From an uncultured Verrucomicrobiota bacterium (GTDB taxonomy: Bacteria; Verrucomicrobiota; Verrucomicrobiia; Chthoniobacterales; JACTMZ01): 64,000 nucleotides of DNA. The notes under the pieces are model-generated. The model was not told the origin of the DNA and did not search any database. It saw nothing but the letters and a program-made list of their open reading frames with translations. Numbering within the stretch: position 1 is the first letter of the stretch; every line of letters begins with the position of its first letter. The stretch is from contig CAJBKE010000002.1 of assembly GCA_903953565.1 (NCBI GenBank), forward strand, positions 1-64,000, written 5' to 3'. The position numbers and the translations under genes were made by a program. Positions 8,101-58,766 of this stretch are shown one piece after another.

Positions 8101-8230
8101 ACCACTAAAAAGCTCCCGACGTCTGGCAAGGTGGATCGCGCTCTCCGAGCGCGATATCTCAGTCTACAAATCGCGATGGGGACATCGCGATCCACCCTAG
8201 GATCAGAGTCTGAAATCTTTCGGGGTCTGT
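8101..8230. repeat. R-family palindromic repeat, copy R2
   Basis: The core runs from GTGGATCGCGCTCTCCGAGC at 8131 to GCGATCCACC at about 8196. Outer flanks CCCGACGTCTGGCAAG on the left and CAGAGTCTGAAATCTTTCGG on the right match R7. It lies between rsmE and bioD, which are co-directional, and occupies nearly the whole gap. Confidence 0.85.
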
Positions 8231-11473: not shown

Positions 11474-11540
11474 GTGGATCGCGCCGTCCCGGCGCGATGT
11501 TTCAATCAGACAATCGCGATAGGGACATCGCGATCCACCG
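11474..11540. repeat. R-family palindromic repeat, copy R4
   Basis: The core GTGGATCGCGCCGTCCCGGC begins at 11474 and the unit ends GACATCGCGATCCACC. Both inner hairpins and outer arms are intact. It lies between convergent sufE and the UGPase gene. Confidence 0.87.
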
Positions 11541-17251: not shown

Positions 17252-17280
17252 CGGCCCGCTGGGCCAGCGGGCCCTACCGG
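17252..17280. repeat. G-family repeat, copy G1
   Basis: GCGGCCCGCTGGGCCAGCGG, followed by GCCCTACCGG, forms a strong hairpin (CCCGCTGG/CCAGCGGG). It separates recF and the convergent amidase gene. The CTA at 17274-17276 is the amidase TAG stop on the minus strand. Confidence 0.75.
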
Positions 17281-21772: not shown

Positions 21773-21838
21773 GGTGGATCACGCCGTCCCGGCGTGATGT
21801 CCGTCATCCAAATCGCGATGAGACATCGCGATCCACCT
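21773..21838. repeat. R-family palindromic repeat, copy R5
   Basis: GGTGGATCACGCCGTCCCGG at the left with a compensating GCGTGATG shows that the hairpin is conserved even where the sequence differs (CACGCC/GGCGTG). It ends GACATCGCGATCCACC. It lies between convergent genes. Confidence 0.87.
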
Positions 21839-24645: not shown

Positions 24646-25422
24646 CCGGAACACCAGATTTTCCGCTCGGCGCGGCGGGCGCAAGACAACTTCCGTGTGG
24701 TGGACGAGGGGAAGGATTGGATCGTGGTGGACAAACCGGCTGGGTTGCTCACGCATCCGACGCGTCCCGATGGCACTCCGACATTGTGGGATGGTTTGCG
24801 TCAGTTGCTGGCCTACGAACTGGCGAACCGCGGACAGTTGTCGATCATTACGCGCCTCGACCGCGAGACGAGCGGTCTGGTTCTCCTCGCGCTGACCCGC
24901 GGGCGGGCGCGTGATCTCGGCTTGGCCATGCAGCGTGGCGCCATCGGCAAGGAATACCTCGCGATCGTGCGCGGTTGGCCGGAATGGGAAACGATGGCGA
25001 TCGATGCACCGATCATCCGGCAAGGCGAAGTGTGCGACTCGCCGGTGTGGCTGAAGCGTTGTGTCGATGCGCGCGGCGCGGAGGCGGTGACGGAATTTTG
25101 CGTCGAGCGGCGTTTCGAGCGGGCGGAGGGAAAGTTCGCCCTGCTGAGGGCGCGGCCGCGCACGGGGCGGACGCACCAGATCCGGGTGCATGCGGCTCAC
25201 GCGGGGTTTTCTTTGGTCGGGGACAAGATTTACGGAGGGCGGGAAGGTGGGGCTTATCTGGAATTTATCGAGACGGGATGGACGCCGAAGCTGGCGGAGG
25301 AGCTTCTGTTGCCGCGCCATGCTTTGCATGCCAGCGCTTTGGAGTTCGAGACCGGGGAGGGGCGGCGCGAGGTGCGGAGCGGAATGCCGCCTGATTTGGC
25401 GGCCTTTGATTTTGGGAGGTGA
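24628..25422 (+). CDS. RluA-family pseudouridine synthase
   Basis: A 264-residue synthase converting uridine to pseudouridine in rRNA or tRNA. From the ATG at 24628 it reads VVDEGKDWIVVDKPAGLLTH, the usual beginning of the catalytic domain. The catalytic Asp is in IITRLDRETSGLVLLALTRG, with Thr where many paralogues have His. The late motif RPRTGRTHQIRVHAAHAGFS is conserved. There is no S4 domain at the N-terminus. Target site not assignable. The start overlaps the divergent ATPase start, so a later GTG start remains possible. Confidence 0.87.
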   Translation: MTQSDHPEHQIFRSARRAQDNFRVVDEGKDWIVVDKPAGLLTHPTRPDGTPTLWDGLRQLLAYELANRGQLSIITRLDRETSGLVLLALTRGRARDLGLAMQRGAIGKEYLAIVRGWPEWETMAIDAPIIRQGEVCDSPVWLKRCVDARGAEAVTEFCVERRFERAEGKFALLRARPRTGRTHQIRVHAAHAGFSLVGDKIYGGREGGAYLEFIETGWTPKLAEELLLPRHALHASALEFETGEGRREVRSGMPPDLAAFDFGR

Positions 25423-25457
25423 ACGCGGGTGGGGCTGTGCTATGTTGGACGATTCTT

Positions 25458-26912
25458 ATGTCCGACTACCTTCGCGTGGCGGGAATCCTTCTGGAAGTCC
25501 TGCTGCTCTTTAACCTGATCATTATTGCCCACGAACTGGGCCATTTCCTCGCTGCGCGCTGGCGCGGTTTGGTCGTGGAAAAATTCGGCATCTGGTTCGG
25601 CAAGCCGATCTGGAAGAAAACCATCGGCGGTGTGGAATACAGCCTCGGGTCGATTCCCGCCGGCGGGTTCGTGGCTTTGCCGCAGTTGGCGCCGATGGAA
25701 GCGGTCGAAGGGGACAGCAGGCATGACCGCGCCACGTTGCCGCCGGTCTCGGCTCTCGACAAAATCATCGTCGCGCTTTCTGGTCCGGTGGCCAGCATGC
25801 TGCTGGCGCTGCTCTGTGCGGTCATCGTTTGGTATGTCGGCCGCCCGGTCAGCCAAGCCGAGAGCACGACGGTCATCGGCTATGTGGTGCCCGACGGACC
25901 CGCGGCCAAAGCCGGCCTGCAGCCCGGCGACAAAATTCTCGAGGTCAACCGCCATCCGGTGACCAAGTTCGCCGGCATGGGCAACATGCGGCAGAGCGTG
26001 ACGTGGAATGTCGTCCGCAGCGAAGAGCCGCTCATTCCGGTCAAATTCGAGCGTGATGGAGCGGTGCAGACGGTCGAAGTCGAACCGGTCACGCCCGAAC
26101 GCGAGGGCTGGGGGCGCCGACCGCTGAGGCAGATCGGGATAGCGCCAGCCACCACACCGATGGTGGCGAAGGTTTTTCCGGACAGTCCCGCTGCCGCGGC
26201 AGGCATCCAACCTCGCGATCTGATCACCGCAGTCGACGGACAACCGTTGCTCAGCCTGGCTTCGCTTTCGGAATTTCTCAATACCCACCCGGCAGGCAAA
26301 CCCATTGATCTCACTGTGCAGCGCGGCGACGAGACGCTGCAATTACCCGTCACGCCTCTGCTTCCCGAGGGTGAGGACAAGCCGCGCGTCGGGATTTTGT
26401 GGGATGACCGCGGGGTTACCGTGCTCGAGCATCCCAACCCGGTCCAATTGGTCGTCGGCAGCGTTCGCACCATGGTCGACACGTTGTCGGCGGTTTTCTC
26501 GCCACGCAGCGATATCAAGGCCGAGCATCTGAGCGGTCCGGTCGGGATCATGCGCATTTACTACCTGCTCTTCGAGTCACCGGATGGTTGGCGCTTGGCC
26601 CTCTGGTTCAGCGTCGTGCTCAACGTCAATCTGGCCTTGCTCAACCTGCTGCCCATCCCCGTTTTGGATGGCGGCCACATCACCCTGGCCATCATCGAAG
26701 CAATCCGGCGCAAACCGATCAATGTGCGGGTGCTGGAAATCGTCCAGAGCGGCTTCGCCTTCCTCATCATCGGCTACATGCTCTACATCACATTCTTCGA
26801 CGTGCAGGACTTGCCGTGGCGCGGCAAGAGTGTGGAGCCGCCGGCGGAGTTGAAGTTCACGCCAGCTCCGGACAAGGCCGGCGCCGCGGACGGCGCCGCT
26901 ACAGGAATGTAG
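25458..26912 (+). CDS. rseP: Site-2 protease RseP-type intramembrane metalloprotease
   Basis: A 484-residue zinc intramembrane protease. The active site HExxH is in LIIIAHELGHFLAARWRG (about residues 20-37), and the third ligand is in NLLPIPVLDGGHITLAIIEA near the C-terminus. Two PDZ regions follow the first helices: VPDGPAAKAGLQPGDKILEV and FPDSPAAAAGIQPRDLITAV. RseP-type proteases cleave anti-sigma factors or signal peptides in the inner membrane. The final codons (GAADGAATGM) and the TAG stop come from repeat T2, so the C-terminal tail is repeat-derived. It is followed closely by ispG. Confidence 0.93.
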   Translation: MSDYLRVAGILLEVLLLFNLIIIAHELGHFLAARWRGLVVEKFGIWFGKPIWKKTIGGVEYSLGSIPAGGFVALPQLAPMEAVEGDSRHDRATLPPVSALDKIIVALSGPVASMLLALLCAVIVWYVGRPVSQAESTTVIGYVVPDGPAAKAGLQPGDKILEVNRHPVTKFAGMGNMRQSVTWNVVRSEEPLIPVKFERDGAVQTVEVEPVTPEREGWGRRPLRQIGIAPATTPMVAKVFPDSPAAAAGIQPRDLITAVDGQPLLSLASLSEFLNTHPAGKPIDLTVQRGDETLQLPVTPLLPEGEDKPRVGILWDDRGVTVLEHPNPVQLVVGSVRTMVDTLSAVFSPRSDIKAEHLSGPVGIMRIYYLLFESPDGWRLALWFSVVLNVNLALLNLLPIPVLDGGHITLAIIEAIRRKPINVRVLEIVQSGFAFLIIGYMLYITFFDVQDLPWRGKSVEPPAELKFTPAPDKAGAADGAATGM

Positions 26913-26933
26913 CGTCGGCGTCCTCGCCGACGA
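26880..26933. repeat. T-family repeat, copies T2 (back to back)
   Basis: CGGACGGCGCCGCTACA is followed 4 nt later by TGTAGCGTCGGCGTCCTCGC. The two half-units face each other. The first lies inside the rseP coding sequence and the second provides its TAG stop. Confidence 0.75.
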
Positions 26934-26942
26934 ATGCGCGCG

Positions 26943-28709
26943 ATGAGCAGCGAACTTCCGCCACCGTTTTATCCGGAGCGACGACGCAGTCGCGCGGTGC
27001 GCGTGGGTTCGACCGGGATCGGGGGAGAGAATCCCGTGCGGGTCCAATCGATGCTGACCTGCGACACGATGGATACCGAAGCCTGCGTGCGCGACTCGAT
27101 CGCGCTGGCCGATGTCGGCTGCGAAATCGTGCGCATCACCGCGCCGACCGTCAAAGATGCGCGCAACCTTGAGCCCATCCGCGATGCGTTACGCGCGCGT
27201 GGATGCAACGTGCCGCTGGTGGCGGATATCCATTTCAAACCCGAAGCAGCGCTCGAATCAGCCAAATGGGTCGAAAAGGTGCGGGTCAATCCGGGTAATT
27301 ACGCCGACTCGAAAAAATTCGCCGTGCGCGAATATACCGACGGTCAATACGCGGAAGAAATCGAACGCATCCGCGAAAAATTCGCGCCTTTGGTCAAACT
27401 GTGCCAAGAGCGTGGCGTCTCCATGCGCATTGGGACGAACCACGGATCGCTGAGCGACCGTATCATGAACCGCTACGGCGATACGCCGCTCGGCATGGTG
27501 GAAAGTGCCCTGGAATTCGCCCGCATCGCACGGGAGATGAACTATCACGACTTCGTTTTTTCGATGAAGGCGTCGAATCCGAAAGTCATGATCGCCGCTT
27601 ACCGCCTGTTGGTCTCACGCCTGGCTGCGGAAGGACCGGATTGGAACTATCCGATCCACCTCGGCGTGACCGAAGCGGGCGATGGCGAGGATGGCCGGAT
27701 CAAAAGCGCGGTGGGTATCGGTTCGCTCTTGGCTGATGGGATTGGCGACACCATCCGGGTGAGTTTGACCGAGGACAGTGTGCACGAGATTCCGGTGGCC
27801 AAGGAGTTGGTCGCGCTTTTTGCCGGGAACTGCGAAGGATGGACTGGCGGCGAGAAACTCTCCTTCGATCCGTTCTCCTACACGCGCCGTGCGAGTGCAA
27901 AGCTGACCATCAACGGAATCCCCCTTGGCAGCGATGAAGTGCCGCGAGTTGTGGTGACGCGGAAGCATTTCGATGCGGTGGCGCACAAGTTGTCCGCGTT
28001 GGGGGACTTCCAGCCCGAGTTGGTCTACGAAGATTTGCCGATCGTCGAAATCGATCCGCGCAATGCCAGTGAGGTTGCCGAATTGAACGCGCGTCCGCAG
28101 GCCTGCCTTGTCACGGTGAAAGACGGACTCGATCTTCCGGTCATTGCCGCGTTCCGTTTGCTCGCGGCCAAGGTTGAAGCGCGTCATCCGATTCTCTTGA
28201 AGGACTCGCTCGATCCGCGGCCTGATCCGCAGGCGCCTTTCGTGCGGACGCTGCTTGCCGCGAGCGCCCGCTTGGGTTCACTCCTGTGCGACGGGATCGG
28301 CGATGCCATCTTGCTACGAACGGAGGATGCTCCGGGGCAAACGCTGCGTTTGTCCTACAACATTCTTCAGGCGGTGGGCGCGCGCATCTTCAAGACGGAT
28401 TACGTGGCCTGTCCGAGCTGCGGACGGACGTTGTTCAACCTCCAGGAGACGACAGCAAGGATCAAAGCGGTCACGCAACATTTGAAGGGCGTGAAAATTG
28501 CCATCATGGGCTGCATCGTGAATGGTCCGGGCGAGATGGCCGATGCCGATTTCGGCTACGTCGGGGGAGCACCCGGCAAAGTGAACCTTTATGTCGGCAA
28601 GAAAGCGGTGAAGTTCAACATTCCGGAGGCCGAAGCGGTGGATCGCTTGGTCGATTTGATCAAGGAACACGGGCGGTGGGTGGAAGCGAAAGAGAAGGCT
28701 GAAGCCTGA
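26943..28709 (+). CDS. ispG: 4-hydroxy-3-methylbut-2-enyl diphosphate synthase, long form
   Basis: IspG (GcpE) makes HMBPP in the MEP isoprenoid pathway and uses a [4Fe-4S] cluster. At 588 residues it is the long form with an inserted middle domain, as seen in Chlamydiae, Bacteroidetes and plants. The N-terminal TIM barrel includes NPVRVQSMLTCDTMDTEACV and VPLVADIHFKPEAALESAKW. The cluster-binding domain has YVACPSCGRTLFNLQETTAR and IAIMGCIVNGPGEMADADFG, with the cysteines. The ATG at 26943 is chosen over one at 26934 because it lies outside repeat T2. Probably co-transcribed with rseP. Confidence 0.95.
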   Translation: MSSELPPPFYPERRRSRAVRVGSTGIGGENPVRVQSMLTCDTMDTEACVRDSIALADVGCEIVRITAPTVKDARNLEPIRDALRARGCNVPLVADIHFKPEAALESAKWVEKVRVNPGNYADSKKFAVREYTDGQYAEEIERIREKFAPLVKLCQERGVSMRIGTNHGSLSDRIMNRYGDTPLGMVESALEFARIAREMNYHDFVFSMKASNPKVMIAAYRLLVSRLAAEGPDWNYPIHLGVTEAGDGEDGRIKSAVGIGSLLADGIGDTIRVSLTEDSVHEIPVAKELVALFAGNCEGWTGGEKLSFDPFSYTRRASAKLTINGIPLGSDEVPRVVVTRKHFDAVAHKLSALGDFQPELVYEDLPIVEIDPRNASEVAELNARPQACLVTVKDGLDLPVIAAFRLLAAKVEARHPILLKDSLDPRPDPQAPFVRTLLAASARLGSLLCDGIGDAILLRTEDAPGQTLRLSYNILQAVGARIFKTDYVACPSCGRTLFNLQETTARIKAVTQHLKGVKIAIMGCIVNGPGEMADADFGYVGGAPGKVNLYVGKKAVKFNIPEAEAVDRLVDLIKEHGRWVEAKEKAEA

Positions 28710-28730: not shown

Positions 28731-28801
28731 TGTAGCGGAGCTCTGCGGGCGCCGGAGCCTGTAAAGCGACAAGGCAGCGACGGTCACAGACCGACGCTAC
28801 A
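28731..28801. repeat. T-family repeat, copy T3
   Basis: TGTAGCGGAGCTCTGCGGGC at the left and CGGTCACAGACCGACGCTACA at its right end. The right half matches copies T4 and T9. It lies between ispG and the RNase P RNA. Confidence 0.7.
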
Positions 28802-31380: not shown

Positions 31381-31473
31381 TGATCAGATCGGACTTATCG
31401 CATGGGGCGGGTCGGGTGGCAAGCGGGGACAACGATGGACGGAGCGGTTTTGAGATTTGACCCCGTGTGTGCT

Positions 31474-31543
31474 TGTAACGGCGGTCTGTGACCGTCGGAC
31501 CACAAAAAAGAAAAGGCACCAACGGTCACAGACCGCCGCTACA
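31474..31543. repeat. T-family repeat, copy T4
   Basis: TGTAACGGCGGTCTGTGACC at the left pairs with GGTCACAGACCGCCGCTACA at the right, so the whole 70-nt unit can fold into one long hairpin with an A-rich loop. It lies between tRNA-Pro and ccsA, in a 245-nt gap with no gene. Confidence 0.8.
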
Positions 31544-31626: not shown

Positions 31627-33288
31627 TCAGGCGGGGACGTGTTGGGCTTTTTGGGCGCCGCGGTGGCGGATCACGGCGGTTCCGACGTAAATGGCTTCGG
31701 CGGCGAGGAAGGCGAGGACGTATTCTTCTCCACCAACGCCGAAGCCGTAGCTGTGGAGTCCTGCGCCGAGGACGTAGTTCACGCCATACCAGGCCATGAT
31801 GATGCCGGCGAAATTGACCACGGCGGCCACGGCGATGCCGAAGTCACCCCACCAACCGGCCATTTTGCCGTGGATGGCGACGACATACATAAGCAGCGCG
31901 ATGAGGGCCCATGTTTCCTTGGGATCCCAGCCCCAGAAACGTCCCCAGCTGTAATTGGCCCACACACCTCCAAGGATGGTTCCGGCTGCGAGCAAAATGA
32001 GACCGACGAACATCATTCGGTAGAGCCATTCGTGCAGCGGACGGATAGCTTCGGCGGTCTCCGGCTTGCGGATGTAGCGCCAGAGGACGACGTGGGCGAA
32101 ACCCAGGGCGAGCGCGAAGGCGGCGTAGCTCAAGGTGATGGTGAGCACATGGACGGTGAGCCAAAAATTATCGCGCAGCACGGGGACGAGCGGATCAAGA
32201 CGCGCGGGCATAGCCACGGGAAGGCTGCGCACGAGGAGCAGGCAGAGGAAACTGACGGGCAAAGCGCTCAGGAGCATGAGGCGGTTGCGGTAGACGGCGT
32301 AGAAGATGAGTCCGAAAAGCACAGTCCCCATGGCGACCCAGACGACCGACTCATACATGTTGGTCACGGGGGCGCGTTCCGCGATGAGGACGCGCAGGAA
32401 GATTCCGTAAAGCATGAAGCCGAGGGACAATGCACTCAACGCGACCCCGCCGCGCAGCAGCCAATGGCGCGCTCCATGCCGTGCTCCGGCCATAAGGAGC
32501 AAGGCAGCAGGCACGAGCAACCACATTGCGGTGTCGAAAGGTTTGAGGCGGTTGTAGAAATTCTCGCGGCTGACCACCGATTCGGTCGGATAAATGTCGG
32601 GATTGAGTGCGCGGAGATCATCGACCAGCCGTTGGGCGGCGGCATCGAAAGCCGCGTTGTCGCCCTCGCGCCCGGCCATGTTCAAATTGCGCAGATCCTG
32701 CAAAATGGGCGCGGCTTTTTCCGGCGGGTAGGCCACGGCCAGTTGGTCGATGGACAGCCATGGTGCGCCCGCGGGCGAGCCCGGCGGGGGCGGGGCGATG
32801 AGGAAAGCGGTGGTCGCGCCGAGCGCGTCGAAGAGTTGCAACCGTCCGAGCACAGTCTGGGCTTCCGAATTCATGCGAGGCACCGGTTCGCCGGCTTGGC
32901 GCAGGGAGGCCGCTTCCTGCGAGAGTGTGGAGAGACCGGTTGCGGCGGCGAGTTCCTTGCGAGTGAAACGTTTGCGGGTGGCATCCAAGCCGAGCTGTTC
33001 GACCAGCGGACGGTAGGAGATGAGGATCATTGGTTCCGTGCTCCAGTCGCGCGTGGCGAAAAGGTTGGAGAAAGCGAACGCGCTGCCGTTGAAAGATTCC
33101 CCGTCGGTCGTGCGCACCGGATCGCGTCCGGCGATCTTGACCAGCACCTCGTGTCCGAATGTGCCGATGGGCTTGCGACGTCCGGAATCCTGCACGGCGA
33201 GGTATTCCCAAGGTCCGATGTCGGCCGCGGGCGGGGCGGCGGGCAACACGGCGGCGGTGGTGAGAAGGATGGCGAGGATGAGTTTCAC
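31627..33288 (-). CDS. ccsA: Cytochrome c biogenesis protein CcsA/ResC type (system II)
   Basis: A 553-residue protein. The first 240 residues are a periplasmic region after a signal segment (MKLILAILLTTAAVLPA). The C-terminal half has about eight membrane helices. The haem-handling Trp-rich motif is WGRFWGWDPKETWALIALLM (about residue 465), diagnostic of CcsA, and a conserved His lies in LTVHVLTITLSYAAFALALG. CcsA and ResB together export haem and attach it to apocytochrome c. It overlaps resB by ATGA. The long N-terminal extension is not part of minimal CcsA and may contact other maturation factors. Confidence 0.92.
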   Translation of the reverse strand: MKLILAILLTTAAVLPAAPPAADIGPWEYLAVQDSGRRKPIGTFGHEVLVKIAGRDPVRTTDGESFNGSAFAFSNLFATRDWSTEPMILISYRPLVEQLGLDATRKRFTRKELAAATGLSTLSQEAASLRQAGEPVPRMNSEAQTVLGRLQLFDALGATTAFLIAPPPPGSPAGAPWLSIDQLAVAYPPEKAAPILQDLRNLNMAGREGDNAAFDAAAQRLVDDLRALNPDIYPTESVVSRENFYNRLKPFDTAMWLLVPAALLLMAGARHGARHWLLRGGVALSALSLGFMLYGIFLRVLIAERAPVTNMYESVVWVAMGTVLFGLIFYAVYRNRLMLLSALPVSFLCLLLVRSLPVAMPARLDPLVPVLRDNFWLTVHVLTITLSYAAFALALGFAHVVLWRYIRKPETAEAIRPLHEWLYRMMFVGLILLAAGTILGGVWANYSWGRFWGWDPKETWALIALLMYVVAIHGKMAGWWGDFGIAVAAVVNFAGIIMAWYGVNYVLGAGLHSYGFGVGGEEYVLAFLAAEAIYVGTAVIRHRGAQKAQHVPA

Positions 33289-34814
33289 TTAGTGAGAGCA
33301 GGAGTGCGGTTCGTGTCGGAGTGGTCAACAGCCGTCGCCGGGGACGGCGACGCTACAGAAGATCCGGGGCGGCGGAAGATGAACATGGTAACGAGGCCGG
33401 CGCAGAGGATGAGCGAGCCGACCCATTTGCCCAGCCAGCCCGGATCGCGGAGAATTTGCACCGAGCTTTGCGAGAGGTCGTTGGGATTCCACGAGGCTTG
33501 CGAGATTTTGTAGGTCAGTCCGGTGAGGGAACGCCAGAGGGCCTGCGGATAGTTGGCCGGTTGGTTCATCGAGCAGGAACCGGTGCCGCCGATTTTTCCG
33601 TCGGGGAGTACCATGGCCAAATCGCTGCGGAACGAGGCGGGTTCGTCGGTGCCCTCGTTGCGTTCGACGGTGAAATTTTCCAGCACGAGTCCGAAAGGCA
33701 GGTCGGCCACTTCCCAGCCATAGGCGATTTCGAGAGGAAAGGTGCCGGTCGGCAGACTGACGCGCCAACCGGCGCCGACCCATTGTTCGACGGTGCGATC
33801 GGCCTTGCTGGCGCGAACGAGTATGCCGTCGAGCAGGCCTTGCCCCGGAGGAATCGGCTCGCCGGCCGGCAAGGGACGGAAATCAAATCCGGCTTGCGCT
33901 GTGGGAAGAATTTCGCGGGCTTCAATCGTCCAGTCATTCCACCCGGTGATGACCGGTTGATCCGCGGCGAGCTGGGTGGAGGAAACTTGGCGTCCGGCGG
34001 CGAAAATTTCGAGTTGCAGCTTTCCGTCGGGTTGCGCGACGAGGACGGCGCGGTTGGCGGCTCCGGTAGTCGGGGCAGGCGCGCCGGGTTTGGCCAGATC
34101 GACCGTGATGAGTCCGAGATCGAGACGGTTGTGATTGCGGTCGCCGGCCAGCAACCATTGCTCAATGGTCTGGTTCATGGCTTTGGTCTGCAGACGGATG
34201 AGCACCGCGGGACTGCCGGCGGGTGCGGTGGCGGGACGGAAGTTGGCAATGAGCCGCGGTGAGTCGGCCACGGCTTGCAGTTTCCACCCGCCGGGAGTCG
34301 TCCACAGATCGAGCGGATCTCCGGTCTGCACGCGCAGCGGTTGCCGTCCGAGTTCGATCATCACGGCGCGTTGAGCGTCCGGATCGCGCACCGTGATTTG
34401 CCGGGTTTGCAGGACGAGTTTGTTGTCCGGAGGAGAGTCTTTGAAAAGGGTCATCGTTCCCTCGATCCCCCAAGCCTGACCGACAACAGAACCGATCATG
34501 ACGATGATGATGCCCAAGTGGGTGAGGAGGAATCCGGTGTGGTATTGTTTCCACGGCCAGCGCATGAATGCGCTGCAAATGAGGTTGGCGCCGAGGAAGA
34601 GCAACCACAGGTGGAACCACGGTGCTTCGTAGATCCAAGTGCGGGCCGTATCCGCATCGAACTTCGACTCGGCAATAGTGCCGACGATGCTCATGACAAT
34701 GAGCACGCTCAACAGGATGACCGCCAGCCGCAGCGAAGCGAAGAACCGGAAGACCGGATCGCGTTTCCAAGCATACCGCGGCGGGCGCGAAGGGCCGGCA
34801 CCGGGTGACGTCAT
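33285..34814 (-). CDS. resB: Cytochrome c biogenesis protein ResB type (system II)
   Basis: A 509-residue protein. The N-terminal part has the ResB layout: FFASLRLAVILLSVLIVMSI with VGTIAESKFD, then WFHLWLLFLGANLICSAFMR and YHTGFLLTHLGIIIVMIGSV. A large periplasmic domain follows, and a last helix lies near residue 475 (WVGSLILCAGLVTMFIF). The ATG at 34814 is preferred to the open frame running to 35390, which crosses the repeat cluster. The C-terminal tail after the last helix (SVASPSPATAV) is translated from repeat T5. It pairs with ccsA, with overlapping stop and start. Confidence 0.9.
   Translation of the reverse strand: MTSPGAGPSRPPRYAWKRDPVFRFFASLRLAVILLSVLIVMSIVGTIAESKFDADTARTWIYEAPWFHLWLLFLGANLICSAFMRWPWKQYHTGFLLTHLGIIIVMIGSVVGQAWGIEGTMTLFKDSPPDNKLVLQTRQITVRDPDAQRAVMIELGRQPLRVQTGDPLDLWTTPGGWKLQAVADSPRLIANFRPATAPAGSPAVLIRLQTKAMNQTIEQWLLAGDRNHNRLDLGLITVDLAKPGAPAPTTGAANRAVLVAQPDGKLQLEIFAAGRQVSSTQLAADQPVITGWNDWTIEAREILPTAQAGFDFRPLPAGEPIPPGQGLLDGILVRASKADRTVEQWVGAGWRVSLPTGTFPLEIAYGWEVADLPFGLVLENFTVERNEGTDEPASFRSDLAMVLPDGKIGGTGSCSMNQPANYPQALWRSLTGLTYKISQASWNPNDLSQSSVQILRDPGWLGKWVGSLILCAGLVTMFIFRRPGSSVASPSPATAVDHSDTNRTPALTK
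33329..33357. repeat. T-family repeat, copy T5 inside resB
   Basis: CAGCCGTCGCCGGGGACGGC, followed by GACGCTACA, is identical over about 27 nt to copy T6. It lies within the last 25 codons of resB. Confidence 0.8.
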
Positions 34815-34916: not shown

Positions 34917-35070
34917 GTTGGTTGGGCCAGCCGACCCTACTGGGAATGAACGGCCGTCGCCGGGGACGGCGACGCTACAGGGGCTGTTGATCGAGGCGGG
35001 GAAGGTGGATCGCGCCGTCCCGGAGCGATTTTGTCTGCGGGAAATCGCGATGGGGACATCGCGATCCACC
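34917..35070. repeat. Cluster of G2, T6 and R6 repeats
   Basis: Three repeat families lie side by side in the gap between the PAS gene end and resB. G2 is GTTGGGCCAGCCGACCCTAC near 34921. T6 is CGGCCGTCGCCGGGGACGGC with GACGCTACA to 34979. R6 begins GGTGGATCGCGCCGTCCCGG at 35004 and ends ATCGCGATCCACC at 35070. The gap from 34815 to 35113 contains nothing else recognisable. Confidence 0.8.
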
Positions 35071-46073: not shown

Positions 46074-46565
46074 CCTCCTCTCATCATCAATGACTTAAGG
46101 AGGAAGTTCGCCGAAATCGGTCGAAAATGTTAGCAAAAGCATAACATTGGCATAACCCGGTGGTTTTCTGCAGCAATCGGGCGTGTTCGTCGGCCATTGA
46201 TTTTCCTGCCGACTTGGCGACCGTGGTCCTCTCATATCAAACACCAAAAGGTTTTCGACGTCTCGTAAGGTGGATCGCGCCGTCCCGGCGCGATGATTCA
46301 GTCGAGAAATCGCGATGGGACATCGCGATCCACCCAGCGCTCAAAGTCTGAAACCTTTTGCGATCTGGTATCACTCCACAGTCCAACCCGCTGCGCTAGG
46401 GTAGCTTCGGACTGTTATAGTCGTTTGGTGTAGCAGCGCCGCTTTGCCGGGGGCTCTGAGGAACCGGAATCAGCCCCGTTCGACTGACGATAGCCCGGCG
46501 GGATTCTGCAGATGCTGCCACTTGACCGCTTGGGTTGTGCTGCGTTGCCGGGTAGAACGGCGCTT
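46074..46565. other. Long intergenic region with repeat R7
   Basis: A gap of about 490 nt between tRNA-Phe and the DUF72 gene. It holds the complete R7 repeat (46238-46372) and otherwise no coding region or RNA gene that I can support. Short open frames there do not resemble proteins. Confidence 0.6.
46238..46372. repeat. R-family palindromic repeat, full-length copy R7
   Basis: The most complete unit, about 135 nt. The core GGTGGATCGCGCCGTCCCGG to CATCGCGATCCACCC spans 46269-46335. The outer flanks are imperfectly inverted: ACACCAAAAGGTTTTCGACG on the left and GTCTGAAACCTTTTGCGATC on the right (AAAAGGTTT/AAACCTTTT). Ends, inner hairpins and size resemble a small non-autonomous mobile element or REP-type unit. 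Confidence 0.87.
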
Positions 46566-51796: not shown

Positions 51797-51823
51797 GGTA
51801 GGGCCCGCTGGCTCAGCGGGCCG
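51797..51823. repeat. G-family repeat, copy G3
   Basis: GGTAGGGCCCGCTGGCTCAG, followed by CGGGCC, is a hairpin of the same composition as G1, in opposite orientation. Confidence 0.7.
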
Positions 51824-52038: not shown

Positions 52039-52117
52039 GGGTAGGGCGCGGCGTCCCCGACGCGCCGTGCACGTTTCCGCGTTTAGCGCGGCGGGTCCGG
52101 AGGCCCCGCCCTACCTG
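52039..52117. repeat. G-family repeat, copy G4
   Basis: GGGTAGGGCGCGGCGTCCCC at the left and GAGGCCCCGCCCTACC at the right are complementary ends of an approximately 79-nt unit. It ends 10 nt before the stop of the convergent metallopeptidase gene. Confidence 0.7.
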
Positions 52118-55195: not shown

Positions 55196-55204
55196 ATCCA
55201 AGCT

Positions 55205-55271
55205 TGTAGCGGCGGTCTATGACCGCCGGGTCCTTTTCGAACGGCACCGACGGTCATAGACCGCCGCTACA
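55205..55271. repeat. T-family repeat, copy T9
   Basis: TGTAGCGGCGGTCTATGACC at the left pairs with GGTCATAGACCGCCGCTACA at the right. It begins 10 nt after the tyrS stop, and its terminal CTA is the TAG stop of the convergent YkgJ-like gene. Confidence 0.8.
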
Positions 55272-55707
55272 AAATGGAGGAAATTGCCGCGGGTAGCGCG
55301 CGGGGACCATCGCCGCCGAGTTGTTCATCGATTTGCTCGAGTCGGCGGATGAGGTCGATCACCTCGCGCCGCGCGTAGGGTCCGCCGGCGGCGGCGCAGA
55401 AATGGGTGCGGCAGCCGAAGGGGCGGTCTTCGTAGATGAGGCAGCGTGAAGTCTGGGGGTCGAGCATCGGACAGGCACCATCATCGCGCGATGGAAGAGC
55501 TTTGCGTCCGGTGGCTTTCCATGCGCGGGCGGCGAGTAATGCCTCACCTCGGGTCAGATACGGGGTTTTGCCGGTCAGCTTGAAATGACAGCACTGCGTG
55601 CGGAGTTCGCAATTTCGCTCGATCGGGCGCGCGGCGAGGTCACGGTAAACGGCGCGGACTTCGGCGAGTGCGGCGGACAGCGAAGTCCGCCCTCCAGAGG
55701 AGTGCAT
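55267..55707 (-). CDS. YkgJ-family cysteine-cluster protein
   Basis: A 146-residue protein. The Cys cluster is CELRTQCCHFKLTGKTPYLT, then CPMLDPQTSRCLIYEDRPFG and CRTHFCAAAGGPYARREVID. This is the CxxxxCC...C...C pattern of YkgJ (UPF0153), thought to bind zinc or an Fe-S cluster. The ATG at 55707 lies 1 nt after the FKBP stop, so the genes are adjacent and co-directional. The TAG stop comes from repeat T9. The partner relationship with the Cys/His-rich FKBP is suggestive but unproven. Confidence 0.82.
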   Translation of the reverse strand: MHSSGGRTSLSAALAEVRAVYRDLAARPIERNCELRTQCCHFKLTGKTPYLTRGEALLAARAWKATGRKALPSRDDGACPMLDPQTSRCLIYEDRPFGCRTHFCAAAGGPYARREVIDLIRRLEQIDEQLGGDGPRALPAAISSIL

Positions 55708-58691: not shown

Positions 58692-58766
58692 GGAAGGGCG
58701 GGGCGTCCCGACCCGCCGTGGTTGTTGGTGTGATTTCGGCGCGTCGAGGACGCCGCGCCCTACCGG
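58692..58766. repeat. G-family repeat, copy G5
   Basis: GGCGGGGCGTCCCGACCCGC at the left and CGTCGAGGACGCCGCGCCC with CTACC at the right. It fills the gap between convergent chrA2 and the permease gene and ends 3 nt before the permease stop. Confidence 0.65.

Follow-up and report, generated by a model that had tools for sequence, protein, structure and literature searches.

Did a dispersed repeat make the protein ends in which it is found? The question is raised by resB, whose last codons hold such a repeat in the 64,000-nucleotide stretch of DNA analyzed here (the window). The original prediction proposed that the C-terminal tails of two different membrane proteins, ResB and RseP, are both derived from this repeat. 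The window lies within a 2.86-Mb draft genome of 70 contigs that is 95.7% complete. Genes were called with our own codon-based script, an imperfect caller by which 89% of the window is coding. The resB gene (ResB family, PF05140, by Pfam and translation; 33285..34814, minus strand) is read from 34814 to a stop at 33287-33285, and its 509-residue translation ends FIFRRPGSSVASPSPATAVDHSDTNRTPALTK. Its stop overlaps, as GTGA, the GTG start of the next gene, which Pfam places in the cytochrome c assembly family (ResC/CcsA-like; 31627..33288, minus strand). The closest named ResB relatives belong to MAGs labeled Chthoniobacterales or Chthoniobacter (Verrucomicrobia). The comparisons within the genus cover 11 genomes, namely the genome that contains the window (G000) and ten congeners (G001-G010).

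The repeat is a 25-nt dispersed palindrome, TGTAGCGTCGCCGTCCCCGGCGACG. The copy in the resB tail (33333..33357, minus strand; T5 of the original prediction) is a perfect match to the search pattern TGTAGCGNCGNCGTCCNCGNCGNCG and is read in frame as VASPSPAT. The same 25-mer is found in intergenic DNA at 34955..34979 on the minus strand (T6), and positions 33327-33358 and 34949-34980 are 97% identical. The last 26 codons of resB do therefore include a dispersed repeat nearly identical to an intergenic copy, as had been proposed. With up to two mismatches allowed, the pattern has 42 matches in the G000 genome, a modest number for a REP family, compared to 0 for a reversed-pattern control. With at most one mismatch, there are 33 matches in G000, 43 in G006, 31 in G004, 20 in G010, nine in G002, five in G005, and one each in G001 and G003. 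No match was found at this threshold in G007, G008, or G009, and copies are present in 8 of the 11 genomes.

The 25-mer folds into an 8-bp hairpin (approximately −14 kcal/mol) behind an unpaired TGTAG, with the GTAG foot at one end of the palindrome. The search pattern fixes all stem pairs except two, so that only these two can show compensatory change. They are standard pairs (G-T included), of several types, in 138 and 143 of the 146 copies in the fetched regions of five genomes. These copies include 39 close pairs (78 of 146 copies), all in opposite orientation. By its foot, its covarying hairpin, its dispersed and mostly intergenic copies, and its inverted pairs, the repeat in resB and rseP is classed as a GTAG-type REP. 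The palindrome is apparently mobile, and its presence and absence differ between species.

ResB ends in FIFRRP followed by a tail of 26 residues. The repeat encodes about 10 of these, which is consistent with the idea that it created the tail by extending a protein that formerly ended after the last helix. However, the repeat is present in resB in 0 of 10 congeners, and all 10 have a tail of 11-25 residues after the RRP of the last helix. The tail has 25 residues in G006; 24 in G005, G001, G002, and G010; 23 in G004 and G008; and 11-13 in G003, G007, and G009. The G010 tail was counted by hand from the printed sequence, because the script had trimmed it at an RRP farther along. The five nearest congeners also share the end of the tail, reading RTPQLS, RAPQLS, or RPPQLS where our genome reads RTPALT, and they likewise have GTGA at the resB stop. 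Orthologues that lack the repeat thus have the same tail at its end, although not in its middle. On these grounds the repeat was rejected as the origin of the whole ResB tail, and we consider it very unlikely that the repeat created it.

Because all congeners have the tail without the repeat, and the five nearest also its end, the tail is old. The sequence comparison indicates that the repeat did not create this preexisting tail but took the place of its middle, lengthening it by one or two codons on balance. The small size of this change relative to the five nearest congeners counts somewhat against a simple insertion, the nearest ResB compared being 84% identical. Pairwise alignments also disagree within the tail on the exact ends of the insertion. 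The perfect pattern match suggests that the insertion in resB is recent. A repeat located within a protein tail is not the same as a tail made by a repeat.

A different history is seen at rseP (Peptidase_M50, PF02163, and PDZ by Pfam; 25419..26912, plus strand, with an uncertain exact start codon). Pattern matching places a pair of REPs at its end. The first copy (26879..26903, minus strand) is read as AGAADGAAT, and the second (26908..26932, plus strand) supplies the stop codon, the TAG at 26910-26912 being that of its TGTAG. Together, the two copies account for the stop and roughly the final 10 codons of rseP. In G006, G002, and G001, as in our own genome, RseP ends at the same TAG, 17 residues after ELKF, and the pair or its remains are present; the pair is clearly decayed in G001 and G002. 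The pair is missing from G005, G007, G008, G003, and G009, in which 4, 7, 9, 12, and 17 residues, respectively, follow ELKF. Outside this comparison are G004, where the script halted at an early in-frame stop, and G010, from which no orthologue was obtained. Since pair-free congeners span 4-17 residues, the length of our RseP is within the natural range. The REP-derived end looks dispensable, because it is common to three congeners and absent from five.

These comparisons support the derivation of the RseP end (about 10 codons plus the stop) from REPs. The proposal that two membrane-protein genes have repeat-derived tails therefore holds for RseP and fails for ResB. Both tails are presumably translated, given the open frame. 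Downstream from the REP pair is an ispG/gcpE reading frame (26934..28709, plus strand, by Pfam), which probably starts at 26943, at an ATG in alignment with the sequences of congeners. At the end of rseP, G008 and G003 have ATGA, in which the stop shares bases with an ATG. The alignment suggests that this ATG begins ispG; if so, the REP pair has parted two genes whose reading frames overlap in other members of the genus. The genome also encodes a second RseP-like protein (G000:C43:702-2042) that is 57% identical to the RseP of the window.

The explanation that we favor, with a probability of about 0.85, is that a GTAG-type REP entered the resB tail in frame and that an ancestral pair entered the rseP-ispG junction. 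This REP, a miniature palindrome of a sort whose movement is attributed to RAYT (Y1) transposases, would have spread in this Chthoniobacterales genus. In resB, one copy would have inserted in frame in the 3′ portion of the gene, within a hydrophilic tail that already existed and changes fast. It would have replaced the central part of that tail and kept intact both the original tail end and the GTGA shared with the neighboring gene. The pair at rseP-ispG would have entered in an ancestor common to at least three congeners, supplying about 10 codons and TAG. Both insertions were probably tolerated because the protein ends concerned are dispensable. The resB copy would then be an orthologue-checked case of a REP that entered coding sequence and left the gene unbroken. 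A draft of 70 contigs in which an identical 25-mer occurs at several places could in principle have fused unrelated pieces at the repeat. Such an artefact is extremely improbable here, since the resB reading frame continues across the repeat, as do the end of the tail and the join with the following gene, in the same way as in congeners, and four separately assembled genomes agree at rseP.

To place the two genes among other copies of the family, the 146 copies can be divided by position: 101 were called intergenic, 23 inside a gene, and 22 as supplying the TAG stop of the upstream gene. Copies with identical flanks were dropped from these counts, and the unfetched copies are all those of G005 (5), G001 (1), and G003 (1), one of the nine in G002, and one of the 31 in G004. 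At least one call is wrong: in G006 an antisense frame was called over rseP (L141), so that both copies of the rseP pair were scored as inside a gene, although one of them supplies the rseP stop. Of the 22 genes that end at a REP stop, 19 have Pfam support, including those for IleRS-like, LysA, RpiA, PdxJ, RibF, and TGT proteins; so do 11 of the 18 genes with an internal copy (15 of 23 copies). In all 11, the copies lie outside the matched domains as judged by eye. They are found at the C-terminus (resB, rseP, L152, and L159), near the N-terminus (L035, L150, and L185, where the start is perhaps miscalled), or between two domains (L038, L135, L151, and L199). Both L152 and L159 (G006) end with a pair plus stop like rseP, as does L191 (G010), a weak call without a Pfam match. 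Copies inside genes occupy five of the six frames, and the sixth contains TAG.

The interdomain copies at L038, L135, and L151 are located in a 2-oxoacid dehydrogenase E2 (lipoyl/acyltransferase), between the two domains of an adenine deaminase, and in a HisKA/receiver protein, respectively. At L199 (G010), a REP pair (2002-2026 and 2042-2066) lies between the ImuB-like (IMS) and DnaE2-like parts of a 1083-aa frame, and perhaps joins two neighboring genes. DnaE2 is also named among REP-tagged proteins in PMC3733652.

The effect of a REP stop on protein length was examined for five genes of our own genome. By eye, the ends of 40 of 44 orthologues are no more than one codon away from that of the REP-stop gene (lysA 8/9, degT 8/8, rpiA 10/10, pdxJ 8/10, and ribF 6/7), with three further ribF loci without a match left outside the 44. 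Several orthologues carry their own REP or its remains (pdxJ in G004, G005, G002, and G003; ribF in G005 and G002; lysA in G006), and thus not all of them are empty sites. The agreement of 40 of 44 ends indicates that a REP at a stop codon usually leaves protein length unchanged. For the same reason, the notion that repeats make tails fails as a rule.

The two sides of the copies were also compared. Of 91 copies, 40 have the foot at −5 to +10 nt from a stop on the same strand. On the opposite side, 8 of 67 copies come within 10 nt of the end of a gene on the other strand (Fisher 1.1e-5, treating paired and orthologous copies as independent). With single copies only, the values are 23 of 47 and 2 of 26 (p 2.9e-4). 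These counts require a gene score of at least 20, which retains 20 of the 22 REP stops. By genome, a strong contrast is seen in G000 (17/29 vs 1/17) and a weaker one in G004 (10/22 vs 2/18); it is not significant in G006 (10/25 vs 5/19, p 0.52) or G002 (3/5 vs 0/4), and G010 shows none (0/10 vs 0/9). It is conceivable, if rather improbable, that REPs prefer stop codons, with the foot towards the gene, by the target of the enzyme and not by selection alone, yielding new stops and occasional kept tails such as that of RseP. If true, this preference would account for the frequent REPs beside gene ends.

Gene-end REPs might instead be kept for function, as RNA hairpins at or near the stop that tune translation, message stability, and the coupling of resB-resC and rseP-ispG. 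The predicted −14 kcal/mol of the 25-mer and the clustering of copies near stops are consistent with this possibility, as is work cited in PMC12306157, in which E. coli REPs within 15 nt of a stop lower translation. However, in resB the hairpin lies within the reading frame, 48 nt ahead of its stop, and of the congeners compared at rseP, five are without the pair and two have it in decayed form. Retention for function is therefore unlikely, although it retains some weight.

The favored explanation, insertion of a mobile REP, invokes a Y1 transposase. A profile search for PF01797 (Y1 transposase) gave no match at E 0.001 in our own genome, a draft that is 95.7% complete, and a resident RAYT was rejected on that basis. 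Matches are present in 6 of the 11 genomes, where they form 16 regions. In four of these, the neighboring REPs either share the foot of the resB repeat or belong to the sister family GTGGATCGCG. At L110, TGTAGCG-foot REPs flank the Y1 match on both sides, and at L108 a pair of them lies on one side. At L112 and L113 (congeners G010 and G002), GTGGATCGCG REPs flank the match on both sides. The remaining 12 regions are without same-foot or GTGGATCGCG REPs, and four among them (L101, L103, L105, and L111) have other GTRG-footed hairpins. Because the inner stem of the L108 and L110 REPs is unlike that of the resB repeat, movement of the latter by such an enzyme is an inference. In one stem class, 24 of 40 copies have a C immediately before TGTAG. 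This gives CT, the dinucleotide that REP transposases cut according to PMC8266576. We treat this match as a lead only.

The resB and rseP cases fit a published pattern, since stop-supplying and intragenic GTAG REPs are already known in this phylum. GTAG-tagged REPs have a GTAG foot, a palindrome of 20-40 bp, and an arrangement in pairs (Di Nocera et al. 2013, PMC3733652). That paper also reports foot TAGs that serve as stop codons and copies inside genes, describes Opitutus terrae (Verrucomicrobia) as richest in intragenic GTAG REPs, and discusses insertions in flexible linkers as possibly neutral. The elements studied here share the foot, palindrome type, pairs, TAG stops, intragenic copies, and phylum, but are other copies in another genus. 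The REP-RAYT systems, REPtrons, and BIMEs described in PMC2817692 and PMC8266576 likewise include inverted pairs and REPs beside a Y1 gene, as we observe in congeners. In contrast, no transposase was detected in our own genome, and the REPs linked to transposases in congeners are of sister types. Rickettsia palindromic elements, as cited in PMC3733652, are also palindromic repeats read in frame inside genes, but they belong to other families, and that paper assigns RPE-4 and RPE-6 to the CGTC-tagged REPs. In the accessible literature on Verrucomicrobia REPs and on REP stop codons or C-terminal extensions, supplements aside, we found no report of REPs at resB or rseP.

Other REP-like families are present in the window. 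The sister family with a GTGG foot, GTGGATCGCG, forms six pairs of about 64 nt each (831-894, 8131-8195, 11474-11538, 21774-21836, 35005-35069, and 46270-46333). A GTAGGGC-foot family is found at 17253-17277, 51798-51822, 52041-52114, and 58738-58763. Hairpins of the TGTAGCGGCGGTCTATGACCGCCG type are located at 55204-55272, 28763-28801, and 31470-31543, and this subfamily adjoins Y1 transposase matches in G002 and G006. The window also contains a 111-nt direct repeat (994-1104 and 1485-1595), whose two copies are 78% identical and 491 nt apart.
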